Of a DNA stretch of 64,000 nt, positions 26,586-33,170 are shown in pieces (positions within the stretch are counted from its first letter, which is position 1; each line of letters opens with the position of its first letter). A model generated the notes under the pieces. It had not been told where the DNA came from, searched no databases, and was given only the letters and a program-made list of their open reading frames with translations. The stretch spans positions 1 through 64,000 of the forward strand of contig JALSRK010000026.1 in assembly GCA_026984795.1 (NCBI GenBank). The letters run 5' to 3'. The position numbers and the translations under genes were made by a program. The stretch comes from Solibacteraceae bacterium (GTDB lineage: Bacteria > Acidobacteriota > Terriglobia > Bryobacterales > Bryobacteraceae).

Positions 26586-27137
26586 TCACTCGGCCGGCCG
26601 GGCGAGGTTGCGGGCGAAGGACTCGTATTTTTCCCGCCGGTCCGGCTGGACCCTGGGGTTGTCGGGATTGTGGAATTCCGCTTCGAGCTGCTTCATATCT
26701 TCGTCGCTCAGATGCATCACCGCCATCCGGAACAGGACGTTGTCTTCCTTCCAGATGTGATTCCGCAGCACGTTGATGTACTCGTCGGCGTGGCGCCGGA
26801 CAGCCTCGACGGCCTCCGGCGAGCCTTCTTTGGCTTTGGGCAAGTTCTCCCGGATCCCCCGCAATGCCGCCCGGCCCAGCTCGTGCTCATGGAGCATCAT
26901 CCCGATGGGGCCTCCCTCCTTGGGTACCCCCCGGCGCTCCAAGGTGGGGAACAGGGCGGACTCTTCTTTGAAATGGTGATGATTGTCGGCGAACTCCGCG
27001 AAGAACTCCAACGCCTCTTCCACGAAGCCGGCCGGGATCTCGCCGCCCTCGGCGGCCACGACGCGTTTTTCCAACGCTTCGAGAACGCGCTCGATGACGC
27101 GGTGGTCGTCCATCAACTCTTCGACAGGATTTGGCAT
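26586..27137 (-). CDS. Hemerythrin HHE domain protein
   Basis: A 183-residue cytoplasmic hemerythrin-like protein with a di-iron four-helix bundle. The start at 27137 gives MPNPVEELMDDHRVIERVLE, the usual first helix. Iron-ligand candidates are in DDHRVIE, FADNHHHFKEESALFP, MMLHEHELGRAAL and HADEYINVLRNHIWKEDNVLF, in the standard H..HxxxE..H..HxxxxD order. Such proteins sense or bind O2, NO or iron and often protect iron-sulfur enzymes. The gene is divergent from a cytochrome operon; a palindrome AGTGA-N6-TCACT sits ~60 bp upstream, where a Crp/Fnr-type activator could act on a -10-like CAGAAT at 27167-27162. That regulatory link is inference. Confidence 0.88.
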   Translation of the reverse strand: MPNPVEELMDDHRVIERVLEALEKRVVAAEGGEIPAGFVEEALEFFAEFADNHHHFKEESALFPTLERRGVPKEGGPIGMMLHEHELGRAALRGIRENLPKAKEGSPEAVEAVRRHADEYINVLRNHIWKEDNVLFRMAVMHLSDEDMKQLEAEFHNPDNPRVQPDRREKYESFARNLARPAE

Positions 27138-27161
27138 GATTCGCCGGGCCTCCAGGCATCT

Positions 27162-27167
27162 ATTCTG
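27162..27167 (-). promoter_or_regulatory. Candidate -10 element for the hemerythrin gene
   Basis: CAGAAT read on the minus strand (four of six to TATAAT). It would place transcription start near 27155, so the palindrome centred at 27196.5 lies at -41.5, the class II activator position. No -35 hexamer is needed in that arrangement. Confidence 0.35.
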
Positions 27168-27188
27168 GACTCTTTCGAACGCCAAGAC

Positions 27189-27204
27189 AGTGACCTAGAT
27201 CACT
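27189..27204. promoter_or_regulatory. Crp/Fnr-like operator, hemerythrin side
   Basis: A perfect inverted repeat AGTGA-CCTAGA-TCACT, the 5-6-5 geometry of Crp/Fnr family sites. It overlaps a direct repeat GATCACTT-T-GATCACTT (27198-27214). It lies 52 bp upstream of the hemerythrin ATG. Confidence 0.5.
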
Positions 27205-27225
27205 TTGATCACTTCCCGGCCCGCT

Positions 27226-27241
27226 TGTGACCACAGTCACG
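27226..27241. promoter_or_regulatory. Crp/Fnr-like operator, cytochrome side
   Basis: TGTGA-CCACAG-TCACG, with an inner perfect inverted repeat GTGAC-CACA-GTCAC (27227-27240). The left half matches the Crp half-site TGTGA exactly. Its centre at 27233.5 is 37 bp from the other site and about 41.5 bp before the predicted cytochrome transcription start. Confidence 0.55.
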
Positions 27242-27263
27242 CCCAGGCGTAGTGGAGTATTGT

Positions 27264-27269
27264 TATAAT
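27264..27269 (+). promoter_or_regulatory. -10 element of the cytochrome operon
   Basis: A perfect TATAAT with no -35 hexamer, which fits an activator-dependent promoter. Start of transcription would be near 27275, leaving a ~45-nt leader before the ATG at 27320. Confidence 0.55.
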
Positions 27270-27319
27270 TTCGGTGGGCTTTGTCCGGGACTCGCCGGAC
27301 AGGCATGAGGTGGGCCGCA

Positions 27320-29434
27320 ATGCCGGGGAACGAACCAACCCACTGGGAAGAAAGGGCCGCCCGTTGGAAATCGCGGCTGGCCGTCTGGGCGGCCGCTTAC
27401 CTGGCGGCCACGGGATTGACGGGGCTGGGCATCTGGCTGCTTCCTTTCAGCGTTCCCAGCCAGATTGCGGTTCTGGTCCACACGCTGATCGGCGTGGTGC
27501 TGTTGCCGGTCTGCGGCTGGTACCTGGTCCGTCACTTCCTGGCCTACTGGCGGCATACTCTCAGCCACCTGCTCGTCCTGGGCTACCTGGCCGGAGCGGC
27601 CACCGTTCTGTGTCTGGTTTCCGGGATTGCGCTCACCTGGCAAGCGGCATTCGGGATCCGGATCAGTTACTCCTGGGACGCGATCCACCTGGCTTCGACG
27701 ATCGCGCTGTTAACGCTGGGGCTGATGCACGTGGTGCTGGTTGCGATGCGCGACCAGCGGGCGTTGCGGGCCAGCGCCCGGGCGGTCTCGAACTTCGTGG
27801 GCCACTATGGCAAGCGCGTGGCGGCCGGCACGGCGGCCAGCGCAGTCCTGGTGGCGGGCGCGGCGATCCTGTATCCGAAACCCAAGTTGCAGACGAAATT
27901 GCCCGACGACTACAGCTACGTCTACGGCAAGGACCGGCCGTTCGCGCCGAGCCTGGCCCGAACGCCCAACAACCAAGTGATCGATTCCCGGCTGTTGTCC
28001 GGCTCGTTGACGTGCGGGACCTCCGGTTGCCACGAGCAGATCGTCAAGGAGTGGGAGCCCAGCGCGCACCGCTTCGCGGCCATGGATCTCGGCTTCCAGA
28101 AGATCCAGATGAACATGGCCCGGCTCAACGGGCCGGAATCGACGCGTTATTGCGGGGGCTGCCACGATCCGATCTCCCTGTTCTCGGGGACCAAGAACCT
28201 GTTCACCGACACGAAGAAACTCACCTCGCTGGCGGGCTACCAGGAAGGCATCTCCTGCCTGGTCTGCCATGCCGTCCGTCAGGTGGACGTGAAGGGCAAT
28301 GCCAACTACGTCGTTCACCAGCCGACGCGATACCTGTTCGAAATCGAATACCAGGAAAGCCATCGGGAGACGACGCGGTTCTGGCGCGATTTCCTGATCC
28401 GCGCCTATCCCTGGAAGCACGTCGAAGATCTCAGCAAGCGGCTCTTCAAGACGCCGGAGTATTGCGCCGCCTGCCACAAGCAGTTCATCGACAAGGAGAT
28501 CAACAACCTCGGCTGGGTCCAGTTGCAGAACCAGTACGACAACTGGCGCCAGAGCCACTGGAACAAGCCCGGCGACCCGACGCGGACGATCGAGTGCCGC
28601 GAGTGCCACATGCCTCTGGTGGACTCCCGGGACCCGGCCGCCGGCGACTCCGGCGACTACAACCGCTCCCCGAACGACGGCAAGCACCGCAGCCACCGCT
28701 TCATCGCCGCCAATCAAATGATGCCGAAGCTGTTGAAGCTCCCCGGCTGGGAGAAGCAGGTGGAGCTGACCGGCAGGTGGTTGCGCGGCGAGTACCCCAT
28801 TCCGGAGATCGAGCACAAGTGGCACCGGGGCCCGGTGGTGGCGATGGATCTGGAAGCCCCGAAGAGCGTCCGGCCGGGCGAGAAAGTGAGCTTGAAGCTC
28901 GTGCTGACGTCGAACAAGGTGGGCCACGACTTCCCCACCGGGCCGCTGGACATCATCCAGGCGTGGCTCGAGGTCATCGTCAAGGACCAGTCCGGCAAGA
29001 CCGTTTTCTCGACGGGCGCCGTTGACGCGAAAGGGTTCATCGCCCCCGGCACTTTCATGTTCAAGGCCGAACCGGTGGACCGTTATGGCAACCTGATCGA
29101 CCGGCACAACCTCTGGGAGATGGTGGGCGTGCGGTACCGCCGGTCGCTGTTTCCCGGCTTTTCGGACACGGCTGAGTTCGACTTTTTCTGTCCCTCGCTG
29201 AATCCGGTGGACAAGAAAGCGCTGCCGCAGGACGTTTCCTTCGAGTGGAAGGTACCCGAGAATACGGCGGGCCTGCTCACCGTCCGGGCGCGGCTGAAGT
29301 ACCGCAAGATGGACCAGTACCTGGTGAACTTCCTCTTCGGGAAGGACGCCGGAATCAGCTCCCCCATCGTCACCATGACCGAACAGACGGCCGCAATCCG
29401 GGTGTTGTCCCGCAGAGGGGCTGCGGGAGATTGA
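27320..29434 (+). CDS. Membrane-anchored b/c-type multiheme cytochrome
   Basis: A 704-residue protein. ATG 27320 was chosen because the predicted transcript starts near 27275 and GAGGT lies upstream; ATG 27305 and TTG 27281 are alternatives. The first ~190 residues hold five hydrophobic segments with histidines placed as in b-type cytochromes (VHTLIG, HLASTIALL, LGLMH). The rest is periplasmic with c-type haem motifs CGTSGCH (a CX4CH, residue ~232), CGGCH (~278), CLVCH (~313), CAACH (~382) and CRECH (~426). The last ~230 residues are beta-rich with no haem motif, including VGHDFPTGPLDIIQAWLEV, as in multihaem cytochromes of the hydroxylamine-oxidoreductase-like group. It probably moves electrons between quinone and a periplasmic or outer partner; the partner is unknown. 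Two FG-GAP proteins follow after 12 bp. Confidence 0.8.
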   Translation: MPGNEPTHWEERAARWKSRLAVWAAAYLAATGLTGLGIWLLPFSVPSQIAVLVHTLIGVVLLPVCGWYLVRHFLAYWRHTLSHLLVLGYLAGAATVLCLVSGIALTWQAAFGIRISYSWDAIHLASTIALLTLGLMHVVLVAMRDQRALRASARAVSNFVGHYGKRVAAGTAASAVLVAGAAILYPKPKLQTKLPDDYSYVYGKDRPFAPSLARTPNNQVIDSRLLSGSLTCGTSGCHEQIVKEWEPSAHRFAAMDLGFQKIQMNMARLNGPESTRYCGGCHDPISLFSGTKNLFTDTKKLTSLAGYQEGISCLVCHAVRQVDVKGNANYVVHQPTRYLFEIEYQESHRETTRFWRDFLIRAYPWKHVEDLSKRLFKTPEYCAACHKQFIDKEINNLGWVQLQNQYDNWRQSHWNKPGDPTRTIECRECHMPLVDSRDPAAGDSGDYNRSPNDGKHRSHRFIAANQMMPKLLKLPGWEKQVELTGRWLRGEYPIPEIEHKWHRGPVVAMDLEAPKSVRPGEKVSLKLVLTSNKVGHDFPTGPLDIIQAWLEVIVKDQSGKTVFSTGAVDAKGFIAPGTFMFKAEPVDRYGNLIDRHNLWEMVGVRYRRSLFPGFSDTAEFDFFCPSLNPVDKKALPQDVSFEWKVPENTAGLLTVRARLKYRKMDQYLVNFLFGKDAGISSPIVTMTEQTAAIRVLSRRGAAGD

Positions 29435-29446
29435 AGCTCTCGACGG

Positions 29447-31243
29447 ATGCCGCCCCGCCATGCACTTTCCGCCCGCCGGAGGCTGATTCTCAAGTATTCG
29501 CTCGCCGCCGCCGCCGTCGTCGCTGCCGCCGTCGTCGCCGTCTCCGGGCGGCGGTCGGAACAAAAACCGTACGCTCCCGGTGAGGCGGTGGAAGGGATTA
29601 CGAGCGAGCTGGCCCGGCATCTCCCGGCGGACCATCCCCGGATCTCGTTCACCAATGTGGCCCCGGCGGCGGGCATCCATTTCCGGCATTTCCCCGGTAC
29701 GCGCTCCACTCAATTGCCCGAGGACATGGGTTCGGGCCTCGCCTGGGGCGACTATGACGGCGACGGGGACTTCGACTTGTTCGTCTGCAACATCGCCGCC
29801 CCGCTCACGGCGAGTCCGGAACAGGTGGCCGCCTCGCCCGGTACGAACGTCCTCTACCGCAACAACGGCGACGGCACCTTCACCGACGTCACCGCCCAGG
29901 CCGGCCTGGAACACCGGGGCATCGGCATGGCGGCGGCTTGGGCCGATTACGACAACGACGGCGACGAGGATCTCGTCGTCACCACTTACCAGCGGATCCT
30001 GCTGTACCGGAACCGTGGCGACGGCACCTTCGAGGAAGTCTCCAGGAAGGCGGGGCTGGCAGGACTCAAACGGTACTGGGCGGGCGCTTCCTGGGGAGAC
30101 TACAACCACGACGGGTTCCCCGATCTCTACGTCTGCGCCTACGTGGACTATCAGTACCGGCCCGAGGATGTGGGGAAGGTGTCGCGGCAGTTCGAGACCG
30201 TGGTCCCGTTTACGCTCAATCCTTCCTCCTATGCGCCCCAACCCAACGCCCTGTTCCGCAACAACGGCGACGGCACCTTCACCGAGGTCGCCGAACGCGC
30301 CGGCGTGGCCAACGAGACGGGCCGGAGCCTCACGGTTTCCTGGTGCGACTTCGACCTCGACGGCTGGATCGACCTCTACATCGCCAACGACGTCTCCGAC
30401 AACGCCATGTACCGAAACCTGGGCAACGGGCGCTTCGAGGACGTCTCGCACAGCGCCCTGGTCTCCGACTATCGCGGCGCCATGGGGCTGGCCGTGGGCG
30501 ACTACGACAACGACACCGACGCGGACCTCTTCATCACTCACTGGATGGCCCAGGAGAACGCCCTGTTCTGGAACATGTTCCGCGCCTTCGGCGACGAGGC
30601 GGCCGGGAAGCTGCAGTTCATGGACATCGCTGACATGATGGGGCTGGGCCAGCAGGCGCTCGACCGGATCGGTTGGGCGACATCGTTCTTCGACTTCGAC
30701 AACGACGGGCGGCTCGACCTGTTCGTCGTCAACGGCAGCACCTTCCAGAGGGAGGACGACCCCACGCACCTGGTCCCGATGGCGGACTTCCTGTTCTGGC
30801 AGAAGAATCCTCAGGATGGCTTCTTCGATCTCAGCCGGGTGGCCGGGCCCGCCTTCACCGAGCTCCATGTCGGCCGGGGAGGAGCCTACGCGGATTATGA
30901 TGGCGACGGGGACCTGGACCTGGCCATCCTGGAATACGGCGAAGGGCTCTACTTGCTGCGGAACGAGGGCGGCAACCGGCGCCACTGGATCAAGGTTCGG
31001 CTCCGGGGCAGCCGGAGCGGGAGGGACGCGTTTGGCGCCGTCGTCGAACTCACCGCCGGCGGCCGGACCCAGACACGGTTCCACGGCGCTCAGCCGTCGT
31101 ATCTCTCGCAGGACGCGCCGGAGATCCATTTCGGCCTGGGGGACGCCGCGCAAGCCGAACGAATCGTGGTCCGCTTTCCGAGCGGCAAGGTCCGGGAGTT
31201 CACGAACGTCCCCGCCGGCAAGACGTTGATCGTGGAGGAGTGA
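29447..31243 (+). CDS. CRTAC1-type FG-GAP/ASPIC-UnbV protein
   Basis: A 598-residue exported protein with an N-terminal hydrophobic signal or anchor (residues ~16-33). Seven calcium-binding FG-GAP (VCBS) repeats follow: DYDGDGDFDLFV, DYDNDGDEDLVV, DYNHDGFPDLYV, DFDLDGWIDLYI, DYDNDTDADLFI, DFDNDGRLDLFV and DYDGDGDLDLAI. Seven units make a beta-propeller. The C-terminal ~90 residues are an ASPIC/UnbV domain (HWIKVRLRGSRSGRDAFGAV, then SYLSQDAPEIHFGLG). Such proteins are extracellular or periplasmic, bind calcium and probably serve in protein-protein contacts. The gene follows the cytochrome by 12 bp, so the two share an operon. Confidence 0.88.
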   Translation: MPPRHALSARRRLILKYSLAAAAVVAAAVVAVSGRRSEQKPYAPGEAVEGITSELARHLPADHPRISFTNVAPAAGIHFRHFPGTRSTQLPEDMGSGLAWGDYDGDGDFDLFVCNIAAPLTASPEQVAASPGTNVLYRNNGDGTFTDVTAQAGLEHRGIGMAAAWADYDNDGDEDLVVTTYQRILLYRNRGDGTFEEVSRKAGLAGLKRYWAGASWGDYNHDGFPDLYVCAYVDYQYRPEDVGKVSRQFETVVPFTLNPSSYAPQPNALFRNNGDGTFTEVAERAGVANETGRSLTVSWCDFDLDGWIDLYIANDVSDNAMYRNLGNGRFEDVSHSALVSDYRGAMGLAVGDYDNDTDADLFITHWMAQENALFWNMFRAFGDEAAGKLQFMDIADMMGLGQQALDRIGWATSFFDFDNDGRLDLFVVNGSTFQREDDPTHLVPMADFLFWQKNPQDGFFDLSRVAGPAFTELHVGRGGAYADYDGDGDLDLAILEYGEGLYLLRNEGGNRRHWIKVRLRGSRSGRDAFGAVVELTAGGRTQTRFHGAQPSYLSQDAPEIHFGLGDAAQAERIVVRFPSGKVREFTNVPAGKTLIVEE

Positions 31244-31250
31244 GCCGCCG

Positions 31251-33170
31251 GTGCTTCCCCGTACGCTCGTCGGTTGCCTGGTCTGGGCCGGCTTGGTCTT
31301 CACGGCCGCGTGCTCCACGGCGCCGGAGCAGGCGGCGCACGAAGCCGGGGGCGAGAAGCAGAAGATCCGCGAGTTCTGGGGCTCCTACCGCCAGGCCACC
31401 CGGCTACGCCTGGACGGGCGCTACGCCGAAGCCATCGCGCTGTTCCGGAAGTGCCTGCAGTTGGACCCGGAACACGAAGACTCTCTCTACTACCTGGGCG
31501 CCAGCCTGGAACACCTGGGCCGGTACCGGGAAGCGTTGAAAGCCTACCAGCGGCTGATCGGAGTGAACCCGCAGAGCGGCCGGGCTTTGGCGCAGCTCGT
31601 CGAGCTGCTGTCCACGCCATTGCCCGGGGCGCCGGTCGACTACGAACAAGCTGAAAAGTGGGCGCTGCAGTGGGTGGAAGTGAACCGGGAGCAGGCCGGT
31701 CCTTTCCTGCAGCAGGGGCTGCTCGAGCTGAACCGCGGCCGGTTCGCGAAAGCGGCGGAGCACTTCCAGGTCGCGGTCCGTTCCGGCTCTCCGGAAGGCT
31801 TCGCGTGGGCGGGCTACACGGCATGGCTGCGTGGTCTCCAGGGCGAAGCGCTCAAGATGTTCCGCGGCCCGATCGAGATCGAGAAACGCGAGCGGCGGCT
31901 GGCGGGCGCCGGCATCAAGGCCGAAGGCGACATCTTGCCGGAGCCGGGAAAGCCCCTTTCGGCGCTGGATCGGGCAGCCCTCGTCTCGCTCTTCTTCTCA
32001 CGCGTGATCCAGGGCGGCGGGAAGGCGTTCCCGGCGCTTTTCCGGCCGGCGAACGCAGGCCTGGCGGCCGCCGGCCGAGGAGCTTGGGGCGACTACGACG
32101 GCGACGGCGGCGCCGATCTGGCGGTGGCCGGGAAGGCCCTGACGCTCTACCGGAATGCCGGCGGGCGCTTTTTGGACGTGACCGCAGCCACGGGCCTCCC
32201 CGAGGTGAAGGGTGTGGAATGTGTCCTCTGGGCTGATTATGACGGCGACGGCCGGTTGGACCTGTATGCCGGGGGACGCAGCGGCGCCCGGCTGTTCCGA
32301 AACCTGGGCGGCAGCTTCTCGGAGGTCACGGGCAACGCCGGACTGGGCCGGAGCGGACCGGCAGACCGGGCGGTGTTCGCCGATATCGACGGCGACGGCG
32401 ACGTGGATCTCCTCCAATCCGGGCCCGTCGAGGGCGGCTGGGCGGTGCAGGCCTTTCTCAACGCCGGAGGCGCGTTTTCGAAGCCGGACCGCCCGGTCAT
32501 CGAGGTCCCTGCCGCCGTGACTCGGTTGCGGGCAGCCGATCTCGACGGCGACGGCCACCCTGAACTCATCGTCGCCGTCTGGGAGAACGGGATCCGCGTG
32601 CTGGCCCGGAAGCCGGATGGGAGGTGGACGGAGAAAACGGCCGCCGCCGGTCTAAACCAAACGCCGTCCGCGGTCACCGACGCGCTCCTGTTCGACTACG
32701 ACCGTGACGGCGACGCCGATCTCTTGCTCGCGGTTCACGCGCCCTGGGAGGACGCGCTGCGGTCGCTGTTGCAGCCGGAGTTCCGCTCGGCTACAAGCGC
32801 GTCGCGCCTCTACCGGAACGACGGCGGCCGCTTTCAGGACGTCTCCGAAGCTGTGGGGATCACCGCCAGCTACGGCGTGATGGAAGCCCTGGCGGCGGAC
32901 CTCGACGGCGACGGGTGGCAGGATGTGATCCTGGTCAACGGAGGGTACGGAGCCCAGCGAGTGGAACCGACCGCCGTCCTGCGGAATGAGGGGGGGAAGC
33001 GCCTCCGCTTGTGGTCGCGTTTGCCCGGCGCGGGCAATCCGGGCAATTACATCGCCGCATCTGTGGCCGACTACAATGGCGACGGGCGGCCTGACCTGTT
33101 TCTCGCCCGGAACCCGCGCTTCCCTGCCCGGCTCTTCCCAGCCGGCGTGTTTCGTAACGTGCTGCAGTGA
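31251..33170 (+). CDS. TPR/FG-GAP lipoprotein
   Basis: A 639-residue exported lipoprotein. The GTG start at 31251 is 7 bp after the preceding stop, with GGAGG inside that gene. Residues 1-21 are a lipoprotein signal ending in the lipobox TAAC. Residues ~40-190 contain TPR-like repeats (YAEAIALFRKCLQLDPEHED, YREALKAYQRLIGVNPQSGR). Residues ~270-630 carry seven FG-GAP repeats, including DYDGDGGADLAV, DYDGDGRLDLYA, DIDGDGDVDLLQ, DLDGDGHPELIV, DYDRDGDADLLL, DLDGDGWQDVIL and DYNGDGRPDLFL, again a seven-bladed propeller. There is no ASPIC/UnbV domain. It is the last gene of the cytochrome operon and may anchor or dock the complex. Confidence 0.85.
   Translation: MLPRTLVGCLVWAGLVFTAACSTAPEQAAHEAGGEKQKIREFWGSYRQATRLRLDGRYAEAIALFRKCLQLDPEHEDSLYYLGASLEHLGRYREALKAYQRLIGVNPQSGRALAQLVELLSTPLPGAPVDYEQAEKWALQWVEVNREQAGPFLQQGLLELNRGRFAKAAEHFQVAVRSGSPEGFAWAGYTAWLRGLQGEALKMFRGPIEIEKRERRLAGAGIKAEGDILPEPGKPLSALDRAALVSLFFSRVIQGGGKAFPALFRPANAGLAAAGRGAWGDYDGDGGADLAVAGKALTLYRNAGGRFLDVTAATGLPEVKGVECVLWADYDGDGRLDLYAGGRSGARLFRNLGGSFSEVTGNAGLGRSGPADRAVFADIDGDGDVDLLQSGPVEGGWAVQAFLNAGGAFSKPDRPVIEVPAAVTRLRAADLDGDGHPELIVAVWENGIRVLARKPDGRWTEKTAAAGLNQTPSAVTDALLFDYDRDGDADLLLAVHAPWEDALRSLLQPEFRSATSASRLYRNDGGRFQDVSEAVGITASYGVMEALAADLDGDGWQDVILVNGGYGAQRVEPTAVLRNEGGKRLRLWSRLPGAGNPGNYIAASVADYNGDGRPDLFLARNPRFPARLFPAGVFRNVLQ

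Follow-up and report, generated by a model that had tools for sequence, protein, structure and literature searches.

Two palindromes between a hemerythrin gene and a multiheme cytochrome operon of this Solibacteraceae bacterium are conserved in related genomes, at a fixed distance from the -10 elements of the homologous promoters. We consider it likely that they are separate operators at which P0002, a Crp/Fnr-family protein encoded elsewhere in the genome, acts as a class II activator and co-induces both operons, with nitric oxide, or a nitrogen oxide closely tied to it, as the most likely inducing signal. In the proposed mechanism, each palindrome would be bound by a dimer of the product of the P0002 gene. 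Placed at about -41.5 of each divergent promoter, both of which lack a -35 element, the dimer would recruit RNA polymerase in the class II manner, and with one operator per promoter the hemerythrin and the cytochrome operon would be induced together. The window referred to below is the whole stretch of 64,000 nucleotides that was analysed.

Predicted operators and promoters of the intergenic region

An earlier note on this DNA had described the two palindromes, a TATAAT without a -35 on the cytochrome side, a minus-strand CAGAAT on the hemerythrin side and a dyad at -41.5 of each promoter. All of these were confirmed at the following positions of the window.

26586 to 27137, minus strand: hemerythrin-domain protein P0003, 183 aa (ORF; PF01814, E 3.4e-21)
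27162 to 27167, minus strand: -10 of the hemerythrin promoter, CAGAAT, 22 nt past the operator core
27189 to 27204, no strand assigned: operator 1, AGTGACCTAGATCACT, predicted, in class II position for the hemerythrin promoter
27226 to 27241, no strand assigned: operator 2, TGTGACCACAGTCACG, predicted, in class II position for the cytochrome promoter
27264 to 27269, plus strand: -10 of the cytochrome promoter, TATAAT, 23 nt past the operator core, without a -35
27320 to 29434, plus strand: multiheme cytochrome c P0001, c554-like, 704 aa (PF13435, E 1.1e-6)
29447 to 31243, plus strand: ORF with FG-GAP-like repeats by sequence reading, 12 nt downstream of P0001
31251 to 33170, plus strand: ORF with TPR and then FG-GAP-like repeats by sequence reading, 7 nt after the preceding ORF

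The start codons at 27137 (minus strand) and 27320 (plus strand) enclose a gap of 182 bp. Operator 1 (AGTGA and TCACT around CCTAGA) is centred at 27196.5 and has one mismatch to GTGACN4GTCAC; operator 2 (TGTGA and TCACG around CCACAG) is centred at 27233.5. The centres thus lie 37 bp apart, between the divergent promoters. The distance from the centre to the first base of the -10 is 30.5 for the cytochrome and 29.5 for the hemerythrin, and with the usual 6-7 nt from the -10 to the start, which makes the starts assumed positions, both centres fall at about -41.5. A sigma-70 -35/-10 pair was looked for between 27100 and 27350 and none was found. Each promoter therefore combines a dyad near -41.5 of its predicted start with a -10 and no -35, and the 21-23-nt spacing is conserved. 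Operator 1 also continues into a direct repeat, GATCACTTTGATCACTT (27198-27214), through which the minus strand offers a further GTGATC half-site that overlaps the first.

The NCBIfam models closest to P0003 are those of YtfE/RIC/DnrN, every one of them under its cut-off. From our own reading of its N-terminus, P0001 appears to be membrane-anchored. The ORF at 29447-31243 probably belongs to the P0001 operon, and the one at 31251-33170 probably does as well.

Conservation of the operators at homologous promoters

GTGAN6TCAC occurs in the window at these two sites only, where 0.61 are expected; 12 of 100 shuffles reach two, so that the window by itself proves nothing. The source genome contains 115 such sites compared to 26 for the reversed control, an excess that mixes composition and function. 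Unlike the count in the window, conservation at homologous promoters is decisive for the palindromes being real.

A search of 150 genomes from the family yielded 15 orthologs of the hemerythrin at E<=1e-40 (L134-L148, own copy excluded). Nine of them carry an exact GTGACN4GTCAC within 200 nt upstream, compared to a mean of 0.01 and a maximum of 1 in 100 shuffle sets; some of the ortholog genomes come in pairs from a shared genus (L143 with L144, L135 with L138), and not all are independent. These nine operators sit 55-67 nt ahead of the extrapolated protein start and are followed by a NANNNT hexamer after 22 nt in eight cases and 23 nt in one. The hexamer is CAGAAT at the 22-nt spacing, as in the window, in L142 and L147, GACAAT or CACAAT in five others and another NANNNT in two. 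The exact palindrome was absent from the covered upstream stretch of the remaining six orthologs, four of which (L134, L136, L137, L140) look operon-internal by eye.

For the cytochrome, 17 homologs with a covered 5' part (34-67% identical) were compared; 12 of 30 loci had been dropped, with a match starting after residue 60 or an identity below 33% (L037, L038, L040, L042-L050). An exact GTGACN4GTCAC lies within 1500 nt upstream in 7 of the 17, whereas 100 shuffle sets gave a mean and a maximum of 0. The operator followed by TANNNT at 21-23 nt, directed toward the cytochrome or its operon, was observed in eight homologs (L022, with one mismatch, L025, L026, L032, L033, L034, L036, L041). The operator was absent from the covered stretch of the other nine, which for L029 comprises only 169 nt upstream. 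Inspection by eye of cytochrome homologs without the operator (L023, L027, L028, L030, L031, L035) showed, in several of them, a -35 of the TTGACA type or, close to the -10, a motif like TTCATGAACAA; such elements in place of the operator suggest a change of regulator. Conservation of the palindromes in related genomes, at the same spacing to the -10, thus holds for 9/15 hemerythrins and 8/17 cytochromes.

The mirror arrangement that the earlier note had pointed out recurs with the cytochrome and RIC, a protein that likewise has a hemerythrin domain. In L036 the two genes are divergent and each has its own operator, with TAACAT (RIC) and TATCTT (cytochrome) at class II spacing. In L032 they are also divergent and share a single operator, with TAGCCT 22 nt away on one side and TATCAT 23 nt away on the other. 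The order is operator, RIC/ScdA and cytochrome in L025 and L026, and in L033 the operator is followed by a DUF6448-like protein (by sequence resemblance) ahead of the cytochrome. A hemerythrin-domain protein thus adjoins the cytochrome under the operator in the window and in 4 of the 17 relatives (L025, L026, L032, L036).

The operator pattern in the source genome and across the family

Nine exact GTGACN4GTCAC palindromes are present in the source genome, three of them inside long open frames with no promoter sign (L053, L062, L063). Further sites lie upstream of a second hemerythrin, with TATAAT; of an HAO-like multiheme cytochrome (75% identical to the L203 target); of a radical SAM protein (76% identical to L241); of a NapH-like protein (70% identical to L253); of an oxidoreductase (43% identical to L096), with the hexamer GAGAAT; and of a porin (63% identical to L252), where TANNNT is absent at the spacing. 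The idea that such sites recur genome-wide before respiratory genes was therefore borne out, for respiratory and redox genes. At L345 (G000:C51), a perfect GTGACTAAAGTCAC was observed between a porin gene and opposite-strand ORFs that resemble Rieske protein and cytochrome b, names that are taken from the sequence.

Across the 150 family genomes, the pattern GTGACNNNNGTCACN{21,23}TANNNT, that is GTGACN4GTCAC, a spacer of 21 to 23 nt and a -10-like hexamer, matched 256 times compared to 19 matches for the reversed control. At least one such site was found in 93 of the 150 genomes and in 56 of 76 genera, and the operator variant occurs mostly in Bryobacterales. Moving the spacer to 16-18 nt gave 31 matches (19 for the reversed control at that spacing); the spacing specificity is measured by this one shifted control, and one of its 31 matches is the window's own site, through an overlapping hexamer. 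Over 134 sites the spacing is 22 nt in 77, 23 nt in 52 and 21 nt in 5. A P0002 ortholog (E<=1e-40) is present in 92 genomes, which hold 226 of the 256 sites, and 79 of these genomes have at least one; 13 have no class II site. The 58 genomes without an ortholog hold the other 30 sites, in 14 genomes. The genomes are related and unequal in size, and the site counts are not independent. The reading of the palindromes as class II Crp/Fnr sites, a prediction from sequence, is supported by this recurrence and by the conserved spacing in relatives.

In the class II sites of L073-L102 and L163-L262, the second base beyond the operator toward the promoter is G in 104 of 134, and the mirrored upstream position is C in 59 of 134. 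Sigma or one of the subunits might make contact with this asymmetric extension.

The candidate regulator

The earlier note had proposed to look for a Crp/Fnr-family gene, and a single candidate was found.

G000:C73:250394-251074 (L001 988-1668), outside the window: P0002, 226 aa, PF00027 and PF13545

P0002 is the sole protein of the source genome that matches PF13545 or PF00325 (HTH_Crp_2 or Crp) at E<=0.001; two further cNMP-binding proteins had no HTH_Crp match. With a cNMP-binding-fold sensor domain, an HTH_Crp domain and no FNR cysteine motif, it has the architecture of DNR, NnrR and HcpR. Upstream, an ORF that reads as HEAT-repeat-like (L001 437-991) shares four bases with the beginning of the regulator gene, so that the two may be coupled in translation.

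An alignment scan of named genomes gave 106 regulator loci, of which the best 80 were kept. Among these, 74 are at least 50% identical to P0002 and are titled Bryobacteraceae, Bryobacterales, Solibacter, other Acidobacteriota or Terriglobia, with one titled Arcobacter (L313). The other six are distant relatives (34-38% identical), five from Caldilineales and one from Acidobacteriaceae. In the 74 close loci, the 36 kb that lie no more than 250 bp from the regulator gene hold 22 sites, in 20 of the loci, compared to 9 in the other 556 kb; the control palindrome was absent from both the 36 kb and the 556 kb. The sites thus concentrate beside the regulator gene, which indicates that the regulator often targets a gene next to its own. 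In L305, L323, L327 and L328 the operator straddles the end of the regulator gene, and the TGA in its first half-site may be the stop codon of the regulator.

The recognition helix R-E-x-x-x-R (R187, E188, R192) is present in 81 of 81 aligned sequences, and we take these residues to correspond to R180, E181 and R185 of CRP. According to passages of Rodionov et al. (PMC1274295), R180 correlates with G3 and E181 with A6 of the operator in the Crp/Fnr family, so the conserved helix of P0002 fits the GTGA half-site. The only cysteines of P0002 are C48 and C117. C48 is kept in 73 and C117 in 74 of the 81 sequences; one of the six distant relatives has C48 and none has C117. An FNR-type 4Fe-4S O2 sensor, which binds its cluster through four cysteines, is excluded by the sequence of P0002 with its two.

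In the cAMP-binding cassette an arginine contacts the phosphate of cAMP. This position is a tyrosine in P0002 and in 70 of the 81 sequences, and a cAMP-receptor CRP was rejected on this basis. The best sequence matches of P0002 are CRP/GlxR-type chains, followed by DNR, and no NO-regulator model or equivalog exceeded its cut-off in an NCBIfam search. A structure model of the ortholog L263 (mean pLDDT 93.3, pTM 0.69) matched DNR, HcpR and CRP without separation. Its whole-length match to DNR (3dkw) has an rmsd of 4.7 over 222 residues; CooA appeared at rank 50 in one structure comparison and was not among the 50 matches listed in the other.

Candidate regulon content in relatives

The census of targets covered 134 of the 256 sites (126 loci, from 30 loci and 100 stretches in table order), a selection among the matches listed. 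A candidate gene was found at 128 sites and none at 6; the genes were called from ORF scores, and some of them, such as L101 and L102, appear spurious. The groups below were named through the Pfam or NCBIfam matches of one representative each.

NapH-like 4Fe-4S proteins: 23 of 134 (for the L083 cluster the NapH match falls below the NCBIfam cut-off)
RIC/ScdA: 18 of 134
Radical SAM proteins, TIGR04053-type: 12 of 134
qNOR: 6 of 134
Hemerythrins: 6 of 134 (4+2)
Alginate-export-type porins: 5 of 134
DUF438-hemerythrin-PAS proteins: 4 of 134
DUF6448 proteins: 4 of 134
Fer4_20/FAD oxidoreductases, cupins, methyltransferases, DUF7009 proteins: 3 each of 134
YwiC, NrfH, dehydrogenase E1: 2 each of 134
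Multiheme cytochromes read as HAO-like (PF13447): 2 of 134
Three pairs unnamed or spurious, and 24 singletons, of 134

The RIC, qNOR and NrfH targets exceed the curated cut-offs. The singletons include a Prismane (Hcp-like) protein, which exceeds the Pfam cut-off, a truncated globin, CcmE and a relative of the window cytochrome (L080); a NapA-like and a NirK-like singleton are both partial proteins under the NCBIfam cut-offs. Many singletons have no evident tie to nitrogen oxides. RIC, at 18 of the 134 sites examined, and qNOR, at 6, belong to the most frequent assigned targets, and the candidate regulon in relatives contains nitrogen-oxide genes, as do those of DNR-, NnrR- and HcpR-type regulators.

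The proposed inducing signal and alternative explanations

Of the three signals that the earlier note had named, O2, NO and redox, NO or nitrogen oxides are the best supported, through the targets in relatives. qNOR answers NO stress. RIC does so too, judging from its regulation, and in P. stutzeri ric is under the control of DnrD (passages of PMC9268430). The nitrogen-oxide signal is proposed because of this target list in relatives and the precedents of DNR, NnrR and HcpR. The source genome, 96.8% complete, gave no match to qNOR (PF22085) or RIC (PF04405), and it is the relatives that supply the case for NO in this organism.

The same regulator and class II mechanism could instead answer low O2 or general redox state, with the nitrogen-oxide genes as part of an anaerobic respiration regulon. 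Hemerythrins can bind O2, the targets include c-type cytochromes, NapH-like ferredoxins, CcmE and porins, and the conserved C48 and C117 (73 and 74 of 81) could be redox-active; the lack of a qNOR or RIC match in the source genome also suits this reading. We nevertheless regard it as unlikely, as P0002 has two cysteines where FNR has four, the NO-stress responders RIC (18/134) and qNOR (6/134) rank high among the assigned targets, and RIC stands next to the cytochrome in L025, L026, L032 and L036. A cAMP-responsive CRP in carbon regulation would account for the GTGA half-site, the arginine at the R180 position and the CRP/GlxR proteins as closest solved sequences. The tyrosine in P0002 (Y in 70/81) at the place of the arginine that holds the cAMP phosphate, and assigned targets that are mainly nitrogen-oxide and redox genes, make this very improbable.

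The layout of the region bears on a different arrangement, in which P0002 represses here or both operators jointly control both promoters. The 37 bp between the centres, flanked by divergent promoters, and the single operator between both promoters of L032 would agree with it. On the other hand, the distance between each operator and its own -10 is that of a class II promoter, the search for a -35/-10 pair found none, and each site is conserved in relatives where the other gene is elsewhere, which means that the pairing is not needed; we judge repression or joint control to be improbable. Chance or structural repeats without any regulator are hardly credible, with both promoters conserved well beyond shuffles and 256 matches compared to 19 in 150 genomes, even though 12 of 100 window shuffles contain two such palindromes. 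Class II activation by P0002 at two separate operators, probably in response to nitrogen oxides, is the reading that we prefer.

Relation to known systems and implications

The proposed regulator is of a known kind, resembling DNR, HcpR and NnrR; its operator, GTGAC-N4-GTCAC, appears new, unlike the published operators of these three. At class II promoters of E. coli CRP the operator at -41.5 replaces the -35 and has a GTGA half-site. Position and half-site are alike here, whereas P0002 is not of the cAMP type by sequence and the regulon is unrelated. Like the proposed P0002, DNR/DnrD of Pseudomonas is a Crp/Fnr NO regulator; it controls nir, nor and, in P. stutzeri, ric (passages of PMC9268430). 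Its operator, TTGATnnnnATCAA, given in passages of PMC1274295, differs, and P0002 has an arginine at the position correlated with G3. NnrR of alpha-proteobacteria is likewise a Crp/Fnr regulator, of denitrification genes, with an operator, ctTTGcgnnnncgCAAag (passages of PMC1274295), that differs from GTGACN4GTCAC. DNR or NnrR proper was rejected for P0002: the operator conserved before both genes is GTGACN4GTCAC, which by comparison differs from the published TTGATnnnnATCAA and TTGcgnnnncgCAA.

HcpR1 of Desulfovibrio and Geobacter is also a Crp/Fnr protein without the FNR cysteine motif and controls genes of nitrogen-oxide stress (passages of PMC1274295). Its operators as given there, wTGTGAnnnnnnTCACAw and wyTTGACnnnnGTCAArw, resemble GTGAC-N4-GTCAC, which combines the G3 of the first form with the C of the second in a hybrid-like manner. 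The core GTGAN6TCAC matches the Desulfovibrio form, while the T that precedes it is found in only 44 of 134 sites and the inner C/G is fixed by our search pattern. The targets differ: a Prismane/Hcp-like protein is rare here (1/134 sites), while RIC and NapH-like proteins are common. HcpR is described as sensing NO through heme (passages of PMC12750200). Our searches of open-licence PMC papers turned up none on a GTGAC-N4-GTCAC operator and no title or opening of an abstract that announces an NO regulon in Acidobacteriota or Bryobacteraceae.

We would entertain, as a possible though doubtful extension, that Bryobacterales have an NO-sensing Crp/Fnr subfamily of their own, with a hybrid operator, a sensor marked by the lineage-specific C48 and C117 and a chemistry for sensing NO or nitrosative stress unlike that of DNR or HcpR. 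Hemerythrin-domain proteins in pairs with the multiheme cytochrome might then be its core clients even where no NO reductase or RIC is detected.

Bryobacteraceae are Acidobacteriota of soil and sediment and are represented here almost only by metagenome assemblies. For such genomes, the operator pattern with its fixed promoter spacing lists candidate members of a nitrogen-oxide regulon genome by genome. The operator would tie uncharacterised hemerythrins, the c554-like cytochrome and DUF438 and DUF6448 proteins to a nitrogen-oxide response, and P0002 is a defined and directly testable candidate for a new NO sensor.
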